Shown here: positions 16,879 through 60,080 of the stretch, in pieces
Layout: each line of letters starts with the position of its first letter
How positions within the stretch are numbered: position 1 is the stretch's first letter
NCBI RefSeq assembly: GCF_000282475.1
Contig: NZ_AKJF01000055.1
Coordinates: 1 to 64,000 of the forward strand
Length of the DNA stretch: 64,000 bases
DNA from: Pseudomonas sp. GM78
GTDB lineage: Bacteria > Pseudomonadota > Gammaproteobacteria > Pseudomonadales > Pseudomonadaceae
Direction of reading: 5' to 3'
Program-made: the position numbers and the translations under genes
The notes under the pieces: model-generated
Told to the model about the DNA's origin: nothing
The model's database searches: none
The model's input: only the letters and a program-made list of their open reading frames with translations

Positions 16879-17994
16879 ATGAAGCGAATGGCCGGACTTT
16901 CCGCACTTGCCTTGATCATCTCCAGCACCAGTGGCTGTGGATGGGTCTGGGGCCCGGAAGGTTATTTCCGTGACCGTGGTAGCGATTACCTGGAAGCGCA
17001 ACAGACTGCACCCATGCAATTGCCGCCAGATGTCACCACCGCCAAGCGCCTGGATCCGCTGTTGCCGATCCCGCGCAACGTCGCCGATGACACCGCCAAG
17101 GGCGAATACGTCGTGCCTCGTCCGCAGCCGTTGTCGGCCGCCGCCGACGCCAGTGCCTACTCCCTGCAGAAGAGCGGCGATTCGCGCTCGATCCTGGCGC
17201 AGAACCCCGCGGCTGAAGTCTGGCCCGTGGCCGTGCAGTTCTTCCAGGACAACGGTTTCCGCCTGGACGAGCAGCGCCCGCAAACCGGCGAATTCACCAC
17301 CACCTGGCAGCGTTCCGACGAACTGTCCGCAGCCATGGCCAAGCGCCTGAGCGCCGCCGGTGTCAGTACCGACAGCGAAACCCGCGTGCGGGTGCGTATC
17401 GAGCCGGGCGTACAACGCAACACCAGTGAAGTCTACGTGGTCAGCGCCGAGCGTCCTGCTGGCAGCACTGCCGACGTCGCCTTCACCAACCGTTCGGTCA
17501 ACACCGGCCTGGACGCGGCACTGGTCGACGACATGCTGGCGAGCATGAGCCGCATTTCCGAAAAGGGCGGTTCGGTCTCCATGCTGGCTTCTCGCGATTT
17601 CGACGCGCCAAGCCGCGTCAGCCTCAGCGAAGACGGCAGCGGCAACCCGGTGCTGAACGTCGGTACCGACCTGGATCGTGCCTGGTCGAGCGTCGGTCGT
17701 GCGCTGGAACAGGGCGAATGGCGCGTTGAAGACATCAACCGCAGCCTGGGCCTGTACTACATCAACCTCGCTGAAAAAGCCGAGAAGAAGGACGACAAGC
17801 CCGGGTTCTTCAGCAACCTGTTTGGCAGTGCCCCGAGCAAGGAAGAAGTCGAATCCCGTGCCGAGCGCTATCAGGTTCGCCTGAGCAAAGTGGGCGAAAA
17901 CGTCCAGGTCACCGTGGAGAAGAACATCAACACCGTGGCGCCGGCTGACGTGGCGCGCAAAGTGTTGAGCGTGATTCAGGACAACCTGGGCTGA
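16879..17994 (+). CDS. bamC: Outer-membrane assembly lipoprotein BamC
   Basis: This lipoprotein has 371 residues. A signal peptide ends in a lipobox with the lipidated cysteine in SGC (about residue 20). An unstructured N-terminal part is followed by two helix-grip domains (about 100-220 and 250-370). BamC (NlpB) is an accessory subunit of the BAM complex that folds outer-membrane beta-barrels. The dapA-bamC order matches Escherichia and Pseudomonas. Confidence 0.9.
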   Translation: MKRMAGLSALALIISSTSGCGWVWGPEGYFRDRGSDYLEAQQTAPMQLPPDVTTAKRLDPLLPIPRNVADDTAKGEYVVPRPQPLSAAADASAYSLQKSGDSRSILAQNPAAEVWPVAVQFFQDNGFRLDEQRPQTGEFTTTWQRSDELSAAMAKRLSAAGVSTDSETRVRVRIEPGVQRNTSEVYVVSAERPAGSTADVAFTNRSVNTGLDAALVDDMLASMSRISEKGGSVSMLASRDFDAPSRVSLSEDGSGNPVLNVGTDLDRAWSSVGRALEQGEWRVEDINRSLGLYYINLAEKAEKKDDKPGFFSNLFGSAPSKEEVESRAERYQVRLSKVGENVQVTVEKNINTVAPADVARKVLSVIQDNLG

Positions 17995-17998
17995 TCAC

Positions 17999-18757
17999 AT
18001 GCGTTTTGCCGTTCTCGGCAGCGGTAGCCAAGGGAATGGCACGCTGATAGCCAGCGCTGATACGTACGTGCTGGTGGATTGTGGTTTCTCCCTGCGGGAA
18101 ACCGAAAAACGCTTGCTGCGCCTGGGTGTAGACCCTGCGCAGCTGAGCGCGATACTCGTGACCCACGAACATGCCGACCACGTGCATGGCGTGGGTTTGC
18201 TGTCTCGGCGTTACAATCTGCCTGTCTACCTCAGTCGCGGGACCCTGCGCGGGATGCGCAAGCCGGTCGAGCCTGCGGGCTTCCTGGCCGGTGGCGAACA
18301 ACTGCAGATCGGTGACCTGAGCATTGGTGTCATTGCCGTGGCCCACGATGCGCAGGAGCCGACGCAATACGTTTTCAGTGACGGTGAGCGGCGCTTCGGC
18401 CTGCTGACCGACCTGGGTTCGTATTGCGACAAGGTGCTGGACGGCTATCGCGACCTCGATGCATTGATGATCGAGGCCAACCATTGCCGGGACATGCTGG
18501 CTCGCGGTCATTACCCGTACTTTCTCAAGCAACGGGTGGGCGGTGAGCTGGGACATTTGAACAACCATCAGGCGGCATTCCTGGTGTCCGAGCTGGGCTG
18601 GAAAGACCTGCAACACCTGGTCCTGGCCCATCTGAGCAGCAAGAACAACCTGCCGCGGCTGGCCCGGCAATGTTTTGTCGACACCCTCGGGTGCGACCCG
18701 GACTGGCTGCAACTGGCCGATCAAGATTCAGGGCTCGACTGGCGACACATCGTCTAG
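17999..18757 (+). CDS. MBL-fold metallo-hydrolase, YycJ/WalJ-like
   Basis: This protein (252 residues) has the metallo-beta-lactamase fold with the metal-binding motif THEHADHVHG near residue 56 and further ligands in LTDLGSY and the late HLSSKN region. It starts 4 bp after bamC and precedes purC, the usual order in Pseudomonas. The fold is a hydrolase; the natural substrate (possibly nucleic acid, as for YycJ) is not shown by the sequence. Confidence 0.85.
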   Translation: MRFAVLGSGSQGNGTLIASADTYVLVDCGFSLRETEKRLLRLGVDPAQLSAILVTHEHADHVHGVGLLSRRYNLPVYLSRGTLRGMRKPVEPAGFLAGGEQLQIGDLSIGVIAVAHDAQEPTQYVFSDGERRFGLLTDLGSYCDKVLDGYRDLDALMIEANHCRDMLARGHYPYFLKQRVGGELGHLNNHQAAFLVSELGWKDLQHLVLAHLSSKNNLPRLARQCFVDTLGCDPDWLQLADQDSGLDWRHIV

Positions 18758-18785
18758 CCCACCTACTTAGCAAGCGGAGCCCATC

Positions 18786-19499
18786 ATGGAAAAACGTGAA
18801 GAACTGTACCGCGGCAAAGCCAAATCGGTTTACAAGACCGACGACGCCAACCGCTTGATCCTGCTGTTTCGCAACGACACTTCGGCGTTCGACGGCAAGC
18901 GCATCGAACAGCTCGACCGCAAAGGCATGGTGAACAACAAGTTCAATGCCTTCATCATGCAGAAACTCGAAGCCGCCGGCGTGCCGACCCAGTTCGACAA
19001 ACTGCTGGGCGACAACGAATGCCTGGTGAAGAAGCTCGACATGATCCCGGTCGAGTGCGTCGTGCGTAACTACGCCGCCGGCAGCCTGGTCAAGCGCCTG
19101 GGCGTTGAAGAAGGCTTGAAGCTGAACCCCTACACCTTCGAACTGTTCCTGAAGGACGACGCCAAGGGCGACCCGTTCATCAATGAATCCCACGTCGTGG
19201 CGTTCGGTTGGGGCACTGCCGAGCAACTGGCGCGCATGAAAGAGCTGTCGCTCAAGGTCAACGAAGTCCTGAGCAAACTGTTCGACGACGCCGGCCTGCT
19301 GCTGGTCGACTTCAAACTGGAATTCGGCGTGTTCCACGACGGCTCCATCGTCCTGGGCGACGAATTCAGCCCGGACGGCTGCCGCCTGTGGGACAAGGCC
19401 ACCAAGAAGAAAATGGACAAGGACCGCTTCCGCCAGGGCCTCGGTGACGTCATCGAAGCCTACGAAGAAGTCGCCAATCGTCTGGGCGTACCGCTTTAA
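18786..19499 (+). CDS. purC: SAICAR synthetase
   Basis: This 237-residue enzyme of purine synthesis joins CAIR with aspartate using ATP. Signatures are YRGKAKSVY, the nucleotide loop near the N-terminus, [22 protein letters not shown] and LVDFKLEFG. The length is typical. It follows the MBL gene by 28 bp and ends just before the tRNA used as the attachment site. Confidence 0.95.
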
Positions 19500-19544
19500 T
19501 CGACGCAAGCATCTGATAGCACAGAAAAATTTTCGAAAGAGGGT

Positions 19545-19572
19545 TTGCTTTCGGCAAAAGTGTTGTTATGAT
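19545..19572 (+). promoter_or_regulatory. Probable sigma-70 promoter of tRNA-Ser
   Basis: TTGCTT (19545-19550), 16 bp, then TATGAT (19567-19572), followed by GCGCGCC, a GC-rich discriminator typical of stable-RNA promoters, ending at the tRNA start. Confidence 0.6.
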
Positions 19573-19582
19573 GCGCGCCGTT

Positions 19583-19672
19583 GGAGAGATGCCAGAGTGG
19601 CCGAATGGGACGGATTCGAAATCCGTTGTACCTTCACCGGTACCTAGGGTTCGAATCCCTATCTCTCCGCCA
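19583..19672 (+). tRNA. tRNA-Ser(CGA), encoded CCA
   Basis: The 5' acceptor GGAGAGA pairs with TCTCTCC before G-CCA. The anticodon stem ACGGA/TCCGT encloses loop TTCGAAA, giving anticodon CGA (19617-19619). A long class II variable arm and GGTTCGAATCC T-loop follow. The 3' 19 nt form the start of the duplicated attachment sequence, so the gene remains intact after integration. Confidence 0.95.
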
Positions 19673-19730
19673 TTATTGAACAAGACGAAGCCCCCGTAAT
19701 CATTGATGATTCCGGGGGCTTTTTCGTTTC
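19654..19730. repeat. Attachment-site repeat, copy 1
   Basis: This 77-bp sequence begins in the tRNA T-arm and includes the tRNA 3' end and the terminator behind it. It is 76/77 identical to 21328-21404. The only difference is C at 19712 versus A at 21386. It is a typical tRNA-type attB/attL core for a tyrosine integrase. Confidence 0.85.
19688..19726 (+). terminator. tRNA-Ser terminator
   Basis: AGCCCCCGTAATCAT pairs with ATGATTCCGGGGGCT (one mismatch) and is followed by TTTTT. The duplicated copy at 21362-21400 has a perfect 15-bp stem. Confidence 0.85.
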
Positions 19731-19740
19731 TGGCGATTTA

Positions 19741-19760
19741 TTTAGGGCATATTTAGGGCA
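19741..19760. promoter_or_regulatory. Candidate integrase arm sites, copy 1
   Basis: TTTAGGGCA occurs at 19741-19749 and 19752-19760, start to start 11 bp. The same pair with the same spacing follows attachment copy 2. Direct short repeats flanking a core are typical of integrase arm-type sites; the function is inferred. Confidence 0.55.
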
Positions 19761-20156
19761 CATGACGGCCTCCATGGGCCGCTGTGGGACGCGCCAGACC
19801 GCTCATTCTAAGTAGGGCCCTATCTATAGCATTTGGAGGAGATGGTGCCAATACGGGCACTGCAGGGCCGCTGTAGCCGCTATGCAATTTAGGTTTGCGA
19901 CGGCCTTTTCGGATTCCTATTGATTCCTCGTTTAGTGGCAAAAAATACTATGGCGTAGTGGCACAGCTTCGGCTACATTCTGCCTATCGAAACGTTCCAC
20001 GGCGTGGAACGTTTCGGAGGACATGACGGTCGTACTTACGTTCGTCGTCTTTTTCGATGGATTTGATGGGTAAGCTTTCAACACGGCTATCGTTTTGCTA
20101 GCATACCGACCCAATTTTTCGGGGTTCCCGTGGTGGGAGCTTCACTGGAGCAGAGC
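19761..20156. other. Non-coding leader of the 1.67-kb att-bounded segment
   Basis: About 400 bp have no convincing gene; a 62-codon leftward frame lacks support. The notable element is a 29-bp palindrome at 19988-20016 with arms CGAAACGTTCCAC / GTGGAACGTTTCG around GGC, a strong hairpin or operator. The AT-rich part around 20080-20105 probably holds the promoter for the small ORF. Confidence 0.5.
19988..20016. repeat. 29-bp palindrome
   Basis: The 13-bp arms are perfect reverse complements with a 3-bp centre. There is no T-tract, so an operator or cruciform is as likely as a terminator. Confidence 0.75.
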
Positions 20157-20351
20157 ATGCAGACCAATCGCACTGATTTCGAAGCCGGTTTCGCACTTTT
20201 AGGCGTGAACCCACACCCTGGTACTCAGTACCCTGGTGCAATGGCCTACGCTCGTCAGTTCAAAAAATGCTCGATTCTGACCGACGTGAATGTTAGTTAT
20301 TCCACTAATACTTCTGCGAATAACGTAATCAAGAAAGTCGACAACAAGTAA
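20157..20351 (+). CDS. Small hypothetical protein of att-bounded segment
   Basis: This 64-residue hydrophilic protein is not recognised. The ATG at 20157 has GGAG 8 bp upstream; a GTG at 20130 would add 9 residues. It contains a single cysteine and a lysine/asparagine-rich end (NNVIKKVDNK). It precedes the SDH-type protease by 53 bp with a hairpin between them, so the protease may be partly attenuated or separately expressed. A partner or substrate role for this protease is possible but only inferred from adjacency. Confidence 0.5.
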   Translation: MQTNRTDFEAGFALLGVNPHPGTQYPGAMAYARQFKKCSILTDVNVSYSTNTSANNVIKKVDNK

Positions 20352-20367
20352 GATTCTTGTTGTTTGA

Positions 20368-20392
20368 AAGCCCGGTTTTCCGGGCTTTTTTT
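20368..20392 (+). terminator. Terminator between small ORF and protease
   Basis: AAGCCCGG-TTTT-CCGGGCTT followed by TTTTT. It ends about 13 bp before the protease start, so it either attenuates readthrough or sequesters the upstream region. Confidence 0.75.
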
Positions 20393-20404
20393 ATGGATGA
20401 TGAC

Positions 20405-21301
20405 ATGCCTAATTGGACTCAAGTTTTAGAAGAAATCATCGTTGCCCAGCAAGGTGGTCATAGCGGTATTGATATTGTACGTAAAAAATATCTGGGCTTG
20501 CTGCAGCAGAAGACGCAGCGCAATGTCATCGCTTACTATTCAGGCTTTCTCCAAAAGCCAGGCTACGCTTTCGGTCACGTCAATGATGATGACAAGAATG
20601 GCTTGATGAATGCTATCCATGGCCTTGACCGCGACCGCGGGTTGGACTTGATACTTCACACACCTGGTGGTGACTTATCGGCGGCTGAGTCGATAGTTCA
20701 TTACCTACGCCAAATGTTCGGGACGAACATTCGGGCGATAATTCCTCAGATTTCCATGTCCGCGGGAACGATGATCGCATGCGCCTGCTCTCCGATTGTG
20801 ATGGGTAAGCAATCGAACATAGGGCCTTTCGACCCTCAGTTCGGTGGTATCCCAGCGTACGGTGTCCTAGAAGAGTTTGAGAAGGCGATCGAGGCCGTTA
20901 AGGCTGACCCCGCAACGACCCCGATCTGGCAAACGGTAGTTAGCAAATACCATCCATCATTTTTGGGTGAGTGCGAGAAGGCGATCGAGCTGGCGGGGGC
21001 AATCGTCAAGGGGTGGCTGATTACCGGTATGTTCAGTGACGATCCTCAGGCGGTGGACAAAGCTGATCGCATTGTCGCAGCACTCAATGATCATGCTGGC
21101 ACTAAGACTCACTCGCGCCATTTCCACATCGAAGATGCAATAGGTTTTGGACTGAAAGTCGAGAAGCTTGAGGATGACCAGGATCTGCAAGAGCTGGTAC
21201 TAACTGTGCACCATGCCTATATGCACACGTTTGCAAACTCTCAGGCCGGTAAAATCATTGAAAACCATGAGGGTGCCTGCACAGCCCTCTTGGCTCAATG
21301 A
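20405..21301 (+). CDS. SDH/ClpP-fold serine protease
   Basis: This 298-residue protein resembles the SDH proteinase branch of the ClpP/SppA clan. LILHTPGGDLSAAESIVHYL matches the oxyanion-loop region. The catalytic serine should be in SMSAGTMIA, followed by SNIGPFDPQFGG, a strand typical of the family. There is no signal peptide, so it is probably cytoplasmic; a weak hydrophobic patch surrounds the active site. The ATG at 20405 has GGAT 6 bp upstream; an in-frame ATG at 20393 lies too close to the terminator hairpin. It is cargo between two att copies. The true substrate is unknown. Confidence 0.75.
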   Translation: MPNWTQVLEEIIVAQQGGHSGIDIVRKKYLGLLQQKTQRNVIAYYSGFLQKPGYAFGHVNDDDKNGLMNAIHGLDRDRGLDLILHTPGGDLSAAESIVHYLRQMFGTNIRAIIPQISMSAGTMIACACSPIVMGKQSNIGPFDPQFGGIPAYGVLEEFEKAIEAVKADPATTPIWQTVVSKYHPSFLGECEKAIELAGAIVKGWLITGMFSDDPQAVDKADRIVAALNDHAGTKTHSRHFHIEDAIGFGLKVEKLEDDQDLQELVLTVHHAYMHTFANSQAGKIIENHEGACTALLAQ

Positions 21302-21327
21302 GTTGAACTGAAGGGCTCCGAGAGTTA

Positions 21328-21404
21328 AATCCCTATCTCTCCGCCATTATTGAACAAGACGAAGCCCCCGTAATCATTGATGATTACGGGGGCTTTTTCG
21401 TTTC
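21328..21404. repeat. Attachment-site repeat, copy 2
   Basis: Second copy of the 77-bp tRNA-Ser 3' sequence, 1,674 bp from the first. It probably serves as the right end of the small segment and the left end of the adjacent prophage. The embedded terminator (21362-21400) has a perfect stem and T-tract. Confidence 0.85.
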
Positions 21405-21414
21405 CGAGGTTTTG

Positions 21415-21434
21415 TTTAGGGCATTTTTAGGGCA
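21415..21434. promoter_or_regulatory. Candidate integrase arm sites, copy 2
   Basis: TTTAGGGCA occurs at 21415-21423 and 21426-21434, with the same 11-bp spacing as at 19741-19760, although the sequence between the 77-bp core and the pair differs. Conservation of these motifs in otherwise diverged flanks argues for function. Confidence 0.55.
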
Positions 21435-21574: not shown

Positions 21575-21985
21575 ATGCTAATCGCGATACTGCATATAGT
21601 GGGCGCCGTTATAGGGACAATCGCGTTTGGTGTGATCGTACTGTTTATTTCCTCGTGGGAGGCAACCAGGAATAACAGGGCATTTATGCAGGACTTGGCG
21701 ATAACGCTCGGGGTCGCTGAAGAGGACCTTAACGACGAAAAACTTTCCCCTAGGATCGTTGCGCTGACATCCGAGCGCTTTAGCAATGATCGCTTTAGTA
21801 ATCGACTCTCTGACCTCTGTGGTGTAGTGCGGGCTGCCTGGGATTGGTTTGGATGGCTTCTCCAGGTAGGAACATTCGTTGGCGTAGTTTGGTTTACCTT
21901 CACTGAGTCACTATCGAACGCAGTCAATGCTTGGTGGATCGTCGCAATCGGGGTTTTCTTCTGGATGGTGTCCTTTTCGCCCTGA
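21575..21985 (+). CDS. Small membrane protein at prophage left end
   Basis: This protein of 136 residues is not recognised. The N-terminal hydrophobic segment (about 3-25) and two C-terminal ones (about 93-110 and 117-134) surround a charged central region with the repeat SERFSNDRFSNRLSD. AAAGGAG lies 8 bp before the start. It stands alone between attL and the oppositely oriented integrase, a position where prophages often carry lysogenic-conversion or superinfection-exclusion genes. That role is inference. Confidence 0.65.
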   Translation: MLIAILHIVGAVIGTIAFGVIVLFISSWEATRNNRAFMQDLAITLGVAEEDLNDEKLSPRIVALTSERFSNDRFSNRLSDLCGVVRAAWDWFGWLLQVGTFVGVVWFTFTESLSNAVNAWWIVAIGVFFWMVSFSP

Positions 21986-22164: not shown

Positions 22165-23382
22165 TCATTCGGTTCTAAAACCAAGCATCTTTGACACGAT
22201 ACCGGCCATGCTCTTGGTGTCTTTCGGTATCCACCTTCCGTAATGTTTTCTCACCATCGTTGTATCGGCGTGCCCCAGTTGCCGAGCAACCCATTCGACC
22301 GGGACGTAGCTCGACAGCATCTGGCTGGCAAAGGTGTGGCGACACTGGTTCGCCCCGCGGTGTCTGACCTCTGCTTTTTTCAGATGGGCGGTAAACCAGT
22401 TGCTCAACGTCTTACCACTCCAGAGCAGGCCGCTAGTCGAGCTACGGAAAAGAAACCTGACTTTCATTTTCTTGGAGGTGATGTTGTCGCGCTGGATGAC
22501 AGTGATCTCCACGGTGGGGGCGTCTTTGGCAACGGCAACAATGTCGCGCATCAGTTCGAGGGCTGGGTCGATGAGCTCGACGACTCGAACCCTGGAGCGT
22601 TCTTTGGGGACTTTGAATTCACCAACGACCAACGCCCGGCGGACATGTACCAGGCCGGCTTCAAGATCGATGTCTTCAACGGCGAGCCCGATGAGCTCGG
22701 ACAGGGACAGACCGGCCCAGCAGTTGAACTCAATCATCCGGGCATCAGCTCGACGGTCGGGATCCGCGTTGCCGATCAAGTCGATCTCGGTGCGACTGAA
22801 AGGGTCGGCATGCTCCAGGTCGACATCAGATCCGACGTTGCTGATCCGGTCGAGCGGATTGGCTTTCAGGATGCCGTCGCCGAAGGCATCAGCCCAGACC
22901 CCGCGGACGACGGTGAAGATGTCGTTCACTGTCTTCGGGGCGAGGCCTTGCTTGAGCAGCTGCGCTTGGAACAACTCGATGTCGCTCTTGCTGATGTCGA
23001 CGATCCGGCGTTTGCCGAATTTCTTCTCGAAGTGCACAGCCTTGCTGATGTAGTTGACGACGGTGCTTGAAGCTTTGAGCGCGCGCTGAACCTCCAGCCA
23101 GCGATCAATGCCTTCTTTCACGGTGCGCTTTAGCGAAGGGCCGCCAGTTCCTGTGAACATGGCAGCCCTGGGCGAGTTCGGAAAGTGGGCCGCATAGTCG
23201 AAGCGGCCCTCTTTTATTTCCGCGAGGATGGTGCGGCGCTTGTTGTCGGCGTAGGCGATCGCGGCCTTGTTTACTTTCGAGACCCCCTCCAAGGGTTCCC
23301 GGCACCGTTGACCGTTGAAGATGAACCATATGCGCAATTGCTTGCCGTTCATCTCAACGCCGGTCGGCATCTTGTCGGTCAT
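22165..23382 (-). CDS. int: Phage tyrosine integrase
   Basis: This recombinase (405 residues) has an N-terminal arm-binding domain of the DUF3596 type (about 1-70), a SAM-like core-binding domain (about 80-175) and a catalytic domain. The tyrosine is Y381 in KHYGRW; CRHTFAS and LGHADT supply the second arginine and histidine boxes. The first arginine box reads GLSLSEL, with serine at residue 226 where most relatives have arginine. It lies beside the tRNA-Ser attachment site, its expected target, and overlaps the excisionase-like gene by 4 bp. Confidence 0.92.
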   Translation of the reverse strand: MTDKMPTGVEMNGKQLRIWFIFNGQRCREPLEGVSKVNKAAIAYADNKRRTILAEIKEGRFDYAAHFPNSPRAAMFTGTGGPSLKRTVKEGIDRWLEVQRALKASSTVVNYISKAVHFEKKFGKRRIVDISKSDIELFQAQLLKQGLAPKTVNDIFTVVRGVWADAFGDGILKANPLDRISNVGSDVDLEHADPFSRTEIDLIGNADPDRRADARMIEFNCWAGLSLSELIGLAVEDIDLEAGLVHVRRALVVGEFKVPKERSRVRVVELIDPALELMRDIVAVAKDAPTVEITVIQRDNITSKKMKVRFLFRSSTSGLLWSGKTLSNWFTAHLKKAEVRHRGANQCRHTFASQMLSSYVPVEWVARQLGHADTTMVRKHYGRWIPKDTKSMAGIVSKMLGFRTE

Positions 23383-23594
23383 GGTTTCCCTTCCATCCAG
23401 CGCTCAATGGCGGCACGGTTGTAAACGATCACATTGGCTGGGTCCTTGCGCCAGTGTTTGCCTTCAAGCCAGAGGCCGCGGGTGCGGTACTTGCGGACGG
23501 CTTCGGTGCTCAGACCGAACACTGGATACAGCAGATCCTGGCGGAACCAGGCGCCTGGTGTGATGTGGAGGTCGAGTTTCTCTGCTCCGCTCAT
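23379..23594 (-). CDS. Excisionase-like protein
   Basis: This 71-residue protein has a winged-helix-like segment (VFGLSTEAVRKYRTRGLW, then KHWRKDP and a final AAIERWMEG), the pattern of small phage Xis proteins. Its stop overlaps the int start (ATGA at 23379-23382), typical of xis-int coupling. GGGAG precedes the ATG. Confidence 0.7.
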   Translation of the reverse strand: MSGAEKLDLHITPGAWFRQDLLYPVFGLSTEAVRKYRTRGLWLEGKHWRKDPANVIVYNRAAIERWMEGKP

Positions 23595-23764
23595 TGTTGT
23601 TTCTCCCCTGCGCGCCGGGCGATACCCTCGGCCTGGCGCTGCTTGCTGCATTGTTCGTGGTTGCCGTGTGCCCGTGACTTGTTGCACTTGTCGCAGATCG
23701 TTTGTAAGTCGAGTGGGGGCATTTGGCCGCGGCGGATTCGGACTGTTCGGCGCAGGGCGGTCAT
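23591..23764 (-). CDS. Small zinc-finger-like phage protein
   Basis: This protein of 57 residues starts at 23764. A CDKCNKSRAHGNHEQC segment (about residues 24-39) has the spacing of a small CxxC-x(8-12)-C/H finger. ATGA overlaps on both sides (23761-23764 with the previous gene, 23591-23594 with xis) support it as a real gene. The function is unknown; a DNA- or RNA-binding role is inferred only. Confidence 0.6.
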   Translation of the reverse strand: MTALRRTVRIRRGQMPPLDLQTICDKCNKSRAHGNHEQCSKQRQAEGIARRAGEKQQ

Positions 23765-24219
23765 GCGGCATCCTTAAGCGCCAAGCGTTCGTCAGCACTG
23801 ATGCTATCCAGCAAGCGATAAGCCAGGGCGCCGACGAAGTGGGCCTGGTTGATAGCTTTCACGCGATAAGCCTCGGTTCCCGGGAATGCATCCCAAGTGT
23901 CTTTGGCTAGCCTGAGGGTGGTGGCAATCTCTAGCAGGGCCAAGTGGTCGCTCTTGAGGAGCGGGGTTGCGTGCGTAGCACGCGCTTGTCGAGCCAGTTT
24001 CTCCAACCGGTGTTGGTCGGCGCGATGCAGACGATTCAGATCGGCGATGTCGGTGTTCAAAGCTTCAATGCGAAGCGAATGCACGGCATTGCGCTCGTCC
24101 AAACCTCTGCTGTAGCTGCGGGCGAGTGAGCGCAGGACTGCTTCACGAATGAAGAAGGCCATCAACAGAAGGCCAATGGCCGAGAAAATGGCGATGATGA
24201 TCTGGTGTTGTGTTTGCAT
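23761..24219 (-). CDS. Membrane-anchored coiled-coil phage protein
   Basis: This 152-residue protein has an N-terminal transmembrane helix (about 7-26), then a charged helical region (about 35-85) likely to form a coiled coil, and a helical end. GAGGAA precedes the ATG at 24219. It is part of the leftward early operon and overlaps the next gene by 4 bp. No family is recognised. Confidence 0.6.
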   Translation of the reverse strand: MQTQHQIIIAIFSAIGLLLMAFFIREAVLRSLARSYSRGLDERNAVHSLRIEALNTDIADLNRLHRADQHRLEKLARQARATHATPLLKSDHLALLEIATTLRLAKDTWDAFPGTEAYRVKAINQAHFVGALAYRLLDSISADERLALKDAA

Positions 24220-59104: not shown

Positions 59105-59190
59105 ATGTGGGGTGCTCCGGAAAGCGGACTCAAACAGTAAGTTGAATCGATATTGATAGGGTGTCATTCACCGGCGAAGTAACGCTGAAG

Positions 59191-59376
59191 CGATTAGCGA
59201 TTTAGCGATTTAGCGATTTAGCGATTTAGCGATTTAACGATTTAACGATTTAACGATTTGACGCTTTAACGATTTAACGATTTAACGATTTAACGATTTA
59301 ACGATTTAACGCTTTAACGCTTTAACGCTTTAACGCTTTAACGCTTTAACGGTTTAACGGTTTAACGGTTTACCGG
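59191..59376. repeat. 23-copy octanucleotide tandem repeat
   Basis: A 7-bp first unit and 22 complete 8-bp units run in blocks: CGATTTAG (4), CGATTTAA/CGATTTGA with one CGCTTTAA (10), CGCTTTAA (5), CGGTTTAA (2), CGGTTTAC (1). The last unit contains the SRAP stop codon (59370-59372). Unit length is not a multiple of three. Confidence 0.95.
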
Positions 59377-60080
59377 CCCTTTTTGTCACCTCCAGTGACT
59401 TGCCCGATAGGCTCAATTAAATCGGGTCCTTGATTGCGTACATTGCCTATCGCGTGGTCCACGTTGAACCACTCGAACGCCTCGGTTGGCTCTCCCTGAA
59501 GCAGTACTATTTGTTCGGCGCGCTCCTTGGGCGTTGCCGGATCGAGCCATTCCTGAGCCAGTTCCGGTGATAGCGCGACGGGGCGTCGATCATGAATGTC
59601 GACCATACCGCCGGCGCTGTCGGCGGTGATGATGAAAAAACCGTCATGCTCGCCTGGCTCATGTTCGCCGATCGGATTCTGACCTATCGCAGCGCAGAGG
59701 ATTGGCGAACGGTTACGATGGCGGATCAGGTAGGGCTGCTTTTTCGGGCCGCCTTCATAAACCCACTCAAACCAGTTGTCGATCGCGATGATGGCCCGGA
59801 GCGGCCAGATGGCTTTGAAGAACGGGCCATGGGCGACATTCTCCACCCGGGCGTTGATTGGCGCGGCATGGTCTTTGGCCCAGTGCGGGCGCCATCCCCA
59901 ACGAACCATATCAGCGCGCAGGTATTCACCCTCGCGGTGAAGGAGGGCTAGCTGAGCGGTCGGCGCGGCGTTGTAGCGTTCGACAGGCTGGTCGCCGACA
60001 TAGTTGAGCAAAGCATTTGGCATGATGAGCGCCGCGACGAAGTCGTGAATGCTGCGGTACTGGGATAGGCGTCCACACAT
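59370..60080 (-). CDS. yedK: SRAP/YedK-type abasic-site protein
   Basis: This 236-residue protein is of the SOS-response-associated peptidase family (HMCES/YedK). C2 after the initiator methionine is the residue that crosslinks abasic sites; NARVE, NWFEWV and DIHDRRPV carry the conserved Asn, Glu and His. It shields abasic sites in single-stranded DNA. AGGAGA precedes the ATG. It is cotranscribed with the zinc-finger gene under a LexA box. Confidence 0.9.
   Translation of the reverse strand: MCGRLSQYRSIHDFVAALIMPNALLNYVGDQPVERYNAAPTAQLALLHREGEYLRADMVRWGWRPHWAKDHAAPINARVENVAHGPFFKAIWPLRAIIAIDNWFEWVYEGGPKKQPYLIRHRNRSPILCAAIGQNPIGEHEPGEHDGFFIITADSAGGMVDIHDRRPVALSPELAQEWLDPATPKERAEQIVLLQGEPTEAFEWFNVDHAIGNVRNQGPDLIEPIGQVTGGDKKGR

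Follow-up and report, generated by a model that had tools for sequence, protein, structure and literature searches.

The short segment that follows the tRNA-Ser(CGA) gene in Pseudomonas sp. GM78 is probably, judging from its sequence organization, the left end of an earlier prophage, i.e., its attL together with the cargo slot between att and the integrase gene (int), and this lost prophage would have belonged to the same integrase family as the prophage now residing next to it. Most likely, the segment is a CIME-like remnant derived from a prophage and not a CIME in the strict sense. The DNA analyzed (hereafter the window) is a stretch of 64,000 bp within a contig of 83,691 bp (C55), the draft assembly of the genome comprising 235 contigs.

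Organization of the repeat and the att sites

The segment is bracketed by a direct repeat of 107 bp, the copies of which (19654–19760 and 21328–21434, both on the forward strand) are spaced by 1,674 bp and are identical at 100 of 107 positions; over the first 77 bp the identity reaches 76/77, as was stated in an earlier, sequence-only reading of this DNA. The first 24 nt of the repeat occur twice in the window with up to three mismatches and in none of 100 shuffles. That reading took both copies for the 3′ end of a tRNA-Ser gene, which holds for 19 bp only (19654–19672), these being the end of the tRNA-Ser(CGA) gene detected by ARAGORN at 19583–19672 (forward strand), the integration target. 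The non-tRNA remainder is phage-supplied DNA, consisting in each copy of a terminator hairpin and two TTTAGGGCA sites (19741–19760 in copy 1 and 21415–21434 in copy 2, both on the forward strand). Copy 1 presumably represents the attL of the lost prophage, and its layout of a tRNA core, a phage terminator and arm sites is matched in the attP of phage KT1 (L012) and in prophage left ends. Since KT1 carries TTTAGGGCA on both sides of one core, beside a related integrase, these sites are read as arm-type, and their position in the KT1 attP and at the prophage ends suggests that they are integrase arm sites.

Between the repeat copies, the ORF scan and a match to Pfam SDH_protease revealed only a 64-aa ORF and an ORF for a ClpP-fold protease of the SDH type, in agreement with the sequence-only reading. 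Neither of the two genes matched an integrase in Pfam, NCBIfam or PHROGs. A perfect inverted repeat, GAAACGTTCCAC-GGC-GTGGAACGTTTC, is located upstream of the small ORF (19989–20015) and is a possible operator.

Resident prophage and the empty site

Copy 2 forms the left att (core, terminator, arm sites) of a resident tailed prophage, complete in appearance, which fills the window from 21328 to 64000 and continues to a third core of 29 bp, lying beyond the window at contig positions 66439–66467. This core closes the prophage as its right att, its 19-nt part being preceded on the left by a TTTAGGGCA site at a distance of 109 bp, so that the resident element measures 45.1 kb core to core. As was claimed previously, it is this next element that carries the integrase, a tyrosine one (22165–23382, reverse strand), accompanied by a putative excisionase (DUF1233; 23379–23798, reverse strand). 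The repressor, primase, terminase, portal, capsid, tail sheath and tape measure were found among 10 proteins of this prophage scanned, and it is of the KT1 type, as integrase, att core, arms and excisionase order all agree. Its own cargo slot between att and int holds a 136-aa ORF (21575–21985, forward strand) with a weak SieA-like match (E 0.0027) and no PADLOC family at E 0.01; at another locus (L181), the corresponding slot contains a 97% relative. Further within the prophage there is an array of 8-bp units (CGATTTAA/CGCTTTAA) at 59174–59389.

A genome of the same species (G264) presents the empty site, in which the counterpart of window positions 17500–19675 (98.8% identity) is joined directly to that of contig positions 66439–67965 (96.3%). 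The IMG/VR provirus IMGVR_UViG_2511231021_000005 begins at the small ORF (20157 onward in the window), and its predicted boundary therefore cuts through the segment.

Cargo of the segment

The small protein of 64 aa (20157–20351, forward strand) is a conserved companion of the protease (20405–21301, forward strand), for which 20405 is the likely start, an in-frame ATG being present also at 20393. Directly before the protease start lies a conserved intrinsic-terminator-like hairpin with a T-run (20366–20392, forward strand), which was detected in all 10 of the relatives at 70–100% that extend upstream to this point (the window itself, L013, L138 and L141–L147). The protease scores 79.6 bits with Pfam SDH_protease (PF01972), above the cut-off of 31.3, and 89.8 bits with NCBIfam Clp_like_SDH (NF047768), below the cut-off of 250; in addition, it displays remote similarity to a head-maturation-protease, and at the sequence level it distantly resembles both ClpP and the 1510-N protease. 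Its predicted model (pLDDT 90.8) has a ClpP-like fold, the Foldseek matches being remote and including one with E < 0.001. Residues S122, D146, H239, H272 and H273 are identical in 23/23 proteases aligned and fit a Ser-Asp-His site, which makes a catalytic triad the presumable assignment.

The predicted structure of the small protein is of low confidence (pLDDT 59.6). The dN values of 0.23–0.30 versus dS of 1.9–2.6 (near saturation) in three comparisons indicate, at the sequence level, that it is under purifying selection, and the motif F-x-x-x-[ST] is common to 20 of the 21 small proteins aligned. A comparable small ORF directly upstream of the protease was observed in 25 of the 33 relatives in which there is space for it, a count which includes the window and the near-duplicates L143 and L036 and in which the small ORF was scored by eye; none was seen in L021, L022, L024, L026, L027, L028, L032 and L150. 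The pair was encountered in Nitrospirae and Methanosarcinaceae MAGs as well, and it recurs in bacteria and archaea, e.g., in L014, L015, L016 and L148. In L142, L145 and L147 it adjoins a PF00589 integrase giving no blast match to that of the window, and in L144 it likewise adjoins an integrase. A gene looking like mutS, as judged from its translation, is located near the pair in L142, L145 and L147. A protein search of phage records retrieved 7 records at 35–49%, and that of plasmids retrieved 31, all under 60%.

No description of the pair of small protein and protease was found in the literature searched, and both ORFs gave 0 PADLOC families at E 0.01. The two genes probably form an operon, in which the hairpin between them may hold the protease back. 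A defence role of the pair is plausible by its company, and, considering both place and company, the cargo probably serves to protect the lysogen or has another conversion function.

The att-int slot and the closest relatives of the segment

Among the loci with full-length integrase, the distance from core to int ranges between 131 bp and 3.1 kb, the slot being empty (131 bp) in KT1, L077, L085 and L104. A search of IMG/VR with the core yielded 38 loci, in 25 of which the integrase is full-length and lies 131–2,686 bp from the core; some of the IMG/VR loci lie on shared contigs and are not all independent (L177/L193, L191/L210, L138/L180, L141/L185). By sequence comparison, the stretch from att to the integrase stop is a variable cargo slot of this prophage family. 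Its contents include ABC-3C/HNH (L070), PDC-S60 (L087) and GmrSD_N with HEPN showing a NsnA/PD-T4-2 match (L109). PADLOC matches (E 0.001) were obtained for 6 of 10 proteins scanned from eight slots, and in terms of slots for 5 of the 8, the match being weak in L073 and L120.

The idea that such slots are generally loaded by accretion was rejected. In 40 stretches scanned, namely 38 other slots (three of them empty), the segment of the window and the locus L140, each with five mononucleotide shuffles, a relic core was present in the window and L140 only; L208 gave a terminator-like match only, and the best hit in L200 was slightly below its own shuffles.

The five closest relatives of the protease (L138, L139, L141, L013 and L140) share 77–80% protein identity with it. 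In four of them the protease adjoins an integrase of the same family, which is full-length and within about 30 bp after the protease in L138, L139 and L141, and truncated in L013; in the fifth, L140, the protease adjoins a core. The pair of small ORF and protease therefore occupies the slot between att and int. The sequence-only reading had named as its own counter-case the segment occurring elsewhere only as the end of an integrase-bearing element, and the relatives largely correspond to it (4/5), with L140 as an exception. Under relaxed scoring, window positions 19647–21301 and 19653–21301 align as one block each to L138:1–1601 and L013:9276–10906, respectively, at 67% in both cases, and both blocks end at the protease stop. 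With default scoring the alignment to L013 falls into two pieces, and that to L141 does so under relaxed and default scoring alike.

Above about 51% identity, the protease was detected only in G006 among 398 genomes of the genus, where it adjoins a truncated integrase, and this genome (locus L116) apparently represents the strain of L013 (Pseudomonas sp. MWU13-2100). Apart from a provirus record identical to the window, nothing nearly identical to the unit of the window was found elsewhere.

The right junction and erosion at the locus

The protease stop is separated from the second core by 26 bp (21302–21327, forward strand). No arm site was detected left of copy 2 (21100–21327), the best 19-mer having 8 mismatches and the best 9-mer 3. 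In loci from IMG/VR, an arm site precedes the core by 110–123 bp in 6 of 8 non-tRNA cores (a count leaving out L180, which starts at the core); of the other two, L177 stands beside an integrase of another family and L183 is without an exact site. At L010, L012, L072 and L083 the arm site lies about 109–122 bp before the core. Right-hand cores without an exact arm site were revealed in L075, L086, L095, L121, L127 and L128, in all of which int is broken or missing. Since arm-less right cores otherwise occur in decayed elements, decay of the right end is the simplest reading of the junction in the window, the absence of arm sites there pointing to the loss of the right arm.

Erosion of prophages is common at this locus. 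Among 40 loci picked from the best genome matches listed (353 of 398 genomes match, presumably mostly through the tRNA itself), int is full-length in 10, broken in 11 and missing in 19, and for 8 of these 19 a whole-genome Pfam integrase search (E 1e-6) places no integrase in the locus stretch. An arm site with no more than one mismatch is present in 34 of the 40 loci; 20 further regions stand outside this set, and the genome scan scored two candidates per genome, so that tandem copies are undercounted. Bare left ends, in which the tRNA core is followed by phage-type sequence and this directly by chromosomal-looking genes, were observed in L097, L100 and L105, which have the arm site, and in L101, which has none at one mismatch.

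A one-off deletion is not certain, because L140, a metagenomic contig from IMG/VR, has the same junction: its protease stop is followed by 18 bp, a core and then the integrase of another prophage. The alignment of L140 to the window continues through the protease-core junction, which therefore may reflect shared descent and not a private deletion; a parallel event or a composite phage may also stand behind it. The L140 record stops short of its left att, and between its inner core and the integrase there is no exact TTTAGGGCA. The 26 bp before copy 2 gave no match identifying the lost right end: an exact 16-mer from them was found in 13 IMG/VR stretches, one being the window's own provirus, and no core was detected in the four of the 12 others which were scanned (L155, L157, L160, L163).

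Origin and predicted movement of the segment

The events leading to this organization can be envisaged as follows. A first prophage, with the small ORF and the protease gene between att and int, would have integrated at tRNA-Ser(CGA), and int, the phage body and the right P arm would have been lost through a deletion that began shortly after the protease and ended shortly ahead of the right core, possibly via microhomology of AAATCCC between the int 3′ end and the core (this heptamer is present in 5 of 28 int 3′ ends compared, those of L073, L076, L092, L139 and L141). The left end would have been retained, presumably because the 3′ end of the tRNA and its terminator are now supplied by it. 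A second prophage of the same family would have integrated at the remaining core, or it would already have been there in tandem.

Recombination of copy 2 with the right att is predicted to excise the 45.1-kb prophage alone, and that of copy 1 with the right att, to excise the segment and the prophage as one 46.8-kb circle; recombination between copy 1 and copy 2, being two attL-type sites with no P arm, is predicted to be poor. Copy 1 combines the core with two arm sites of the neighbor's type, so that a joint departure of segment and prophage is conceivable; as arm sites are absent from the core at its right junction, the segment should move only with that neighbor. Of the sequence-only reading, the att-bounded, integrase-less cargo next to a prophage with an integrase is thus supported. 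A minimal satellite or cassette that moves autonomously is not supported, in view of the arm-less right junction and the mostly integrase-linked relatives.

It is also possible, though we give it clearly less credence, that the segment and its neighbor now constitute one composite 46.8-kb phage, extending from copy 1 to the right att, with copy 2 as an internal leftover. Such a phage concerns the present movement and not the origin, and is compatible with the remnant explanation. Copy 1 with its two arm sites can pair with the right att, and the lack of an exact TTTAGGGCA behind the inner core of L140 is what a fossil site would display; however, copy 2 in the window still has both of its arm sites, and the 38 other att-int slots scanned, 35 of which are non-empty, hold no inner-core relic.

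Integrase-less cassettes at the same tRNA locus

The right-end pattern of cassettes with TTGTAGCA-type sites was found in 7 of 398 genomes. In G116, G239, G086 and G349, the interval from the tRNA core to the next core is 3.5–4.8 kb long, has no PF00589 gene, and carries two TTGTAGCA sites at its right end and one at its left, the left site of the G239 cassette being changed at one base. L170 (G015) is a larger relative with an integrase beside its right end, and G037 and G326 have one core only within the stretch examined. The cassettes of G239 (L111:9915–14685) and G086 (L168:7119–11889) are 4.77 kb long and contain RT-TIR, 194-aa and HNH-like genes, the RT-TIR of G086 being assigned by identity; those of G116 (L110:9888–13722), with KAP NTPase/PDC-S49, and of G349 (L115:6520–9993), with a PIN-domain gene, have the same arm type. 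L110 and L111 have the right end in common and different cargo. PADLOC matches were obtained for 3 of 9 proteins from three of the integrase-less cassettes, with none in L115. A 27-mer from the right end of the cassettes had no match in IMG/VR.

Between the cassettes of G239 and G086, which are equal in length, there are 32 differences over 4,771 positions (99.3% identity), whereas 2 kb of their left chromosomal flanks are 84.2% identical and their right neighbors are different. These sequences provide good comparative evidence for site-specific movement of the cassette without an integrase of its own, a lost helper being possible. The idea of integrase-less att-bounded mobile cassettes thus has support at those loci, but not at the segment of the window.

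It is in this light that the segment itself can be considered as a genuine integrase-less cassette, in which the small ORF and the protease between att cores are moved by the integrases of neighboring prophages. Both the PF00589-less intervals at the same tRNA locus, with the G239/G086 unit far more alike than its flanks, and the repeated protease-core junction of L140 would fit such a cassette. Those cassettes, however, have TTGTAGCA sites at both ends and the segment has arm sites on the left only, while the closest relatives of its unit are just 77–80% identical and in four of five cases int-linked, and we consider this origin unlikely. It seems similarly doubtful that a class of integrase-less, core-bounded defence cassettes at the Pseudomonas tRNA-Ser(CGA) gene, spreading between species by the borrowed integrases of resident elements, includes the segment as a young or one-armed member bearing an undescribed two-gene defence unit. 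Finally, an assembly artefact, in which two alleles of a prophage would have been merged into a spurious tandem, is conceivable for a draft genome in so many contigs and yet highly improbable, as 7 of the 107 positions distinguish the repeat copies, the outer flanks on either side agree with the empty site of the same species, and the identical IMG/VR provirus, though maybe from the same assembly, has the same order.

Comparison with known systems

Phage satellites, such as PICI and P4-like ones, possess their own integrase and replication or packaging-hijack genes. The remnant in the window is unlike them, as it comprises two ORFs with no integrase, replication or packaging-hijack family recognized by Pfam, NCBIfam or PHROGs. 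In the available part of its description, a CIME is an element which has lost the integration genes and kept attL and whose remaining att is joined by a second element, in a three-step history of ICEs and IMEs (PMC5704250). The segment resembles it in having lost the integration and transfer genes (neither of its two ORFs matches an integrase) and in retaining attL (the core and both arm sites of copy 1). It departs from a CIME at attR, where the core is present and the P arm is absent left of copy 2, and, as far as that description goes, in deriving from a prophage and not from an ICE or IME (PMC5704250).

Tandem att-bounded units at an RNA gene are likewise seen in the ssrA islands of Dehalococcoides, 15 of which are without integration modules and were called possible cis-mobilizable elements; these islands differ, according to the part of the report available, in their serine recombinase system and reductive dehalogenase cargo (PMC3146451). 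Prophage 02 of Pf-5, an 8.4-kb element in tRNASer(3) that carries a gene for an ATP-dependent nuclease and an integrase gene with a frameshift, is another prophage remnant in a Pseudomonas tRNA-Ser gene, and in the section covering it no second prophage is described behind the remnant (PMC2647930). The CIME concept, the accretion history and a nuclease-cargo remnant in a Pseudomonas tRNA-Ser gene are therefore already known, as seen from these partial accounts (PMC5704250, PMC3146451, PMC2647930). Defence hotspots, i.e., slots of fixed position close to the integrase with varying defence cargo, were described for P2/P4-like phages and other prophages; in the part of that work available, the slots lie between psu and int or between a regulator and int (PMC9122126), and here the slot extends from att to the stop codon of int. 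Pseudomonas phage KT1 (PQ316073, a record marked UNVERIFIED and without annotation) has an integrase 94% identical to that of the window and the same layout of att core and arms, and differs in its empty att-int slot of 131 bp.

At one and the same locus, an att-int slot with known or candidate defence genes and integrase-less cassettes, one of them with signs of recent transfer, make the mobilization of defence genes in trans a testable proposition. The segment itself suggests that the cargo of a prophage can outlive the phage, when the att end is retained for completing the tRNA gene and the adjoining cargo stays with it.
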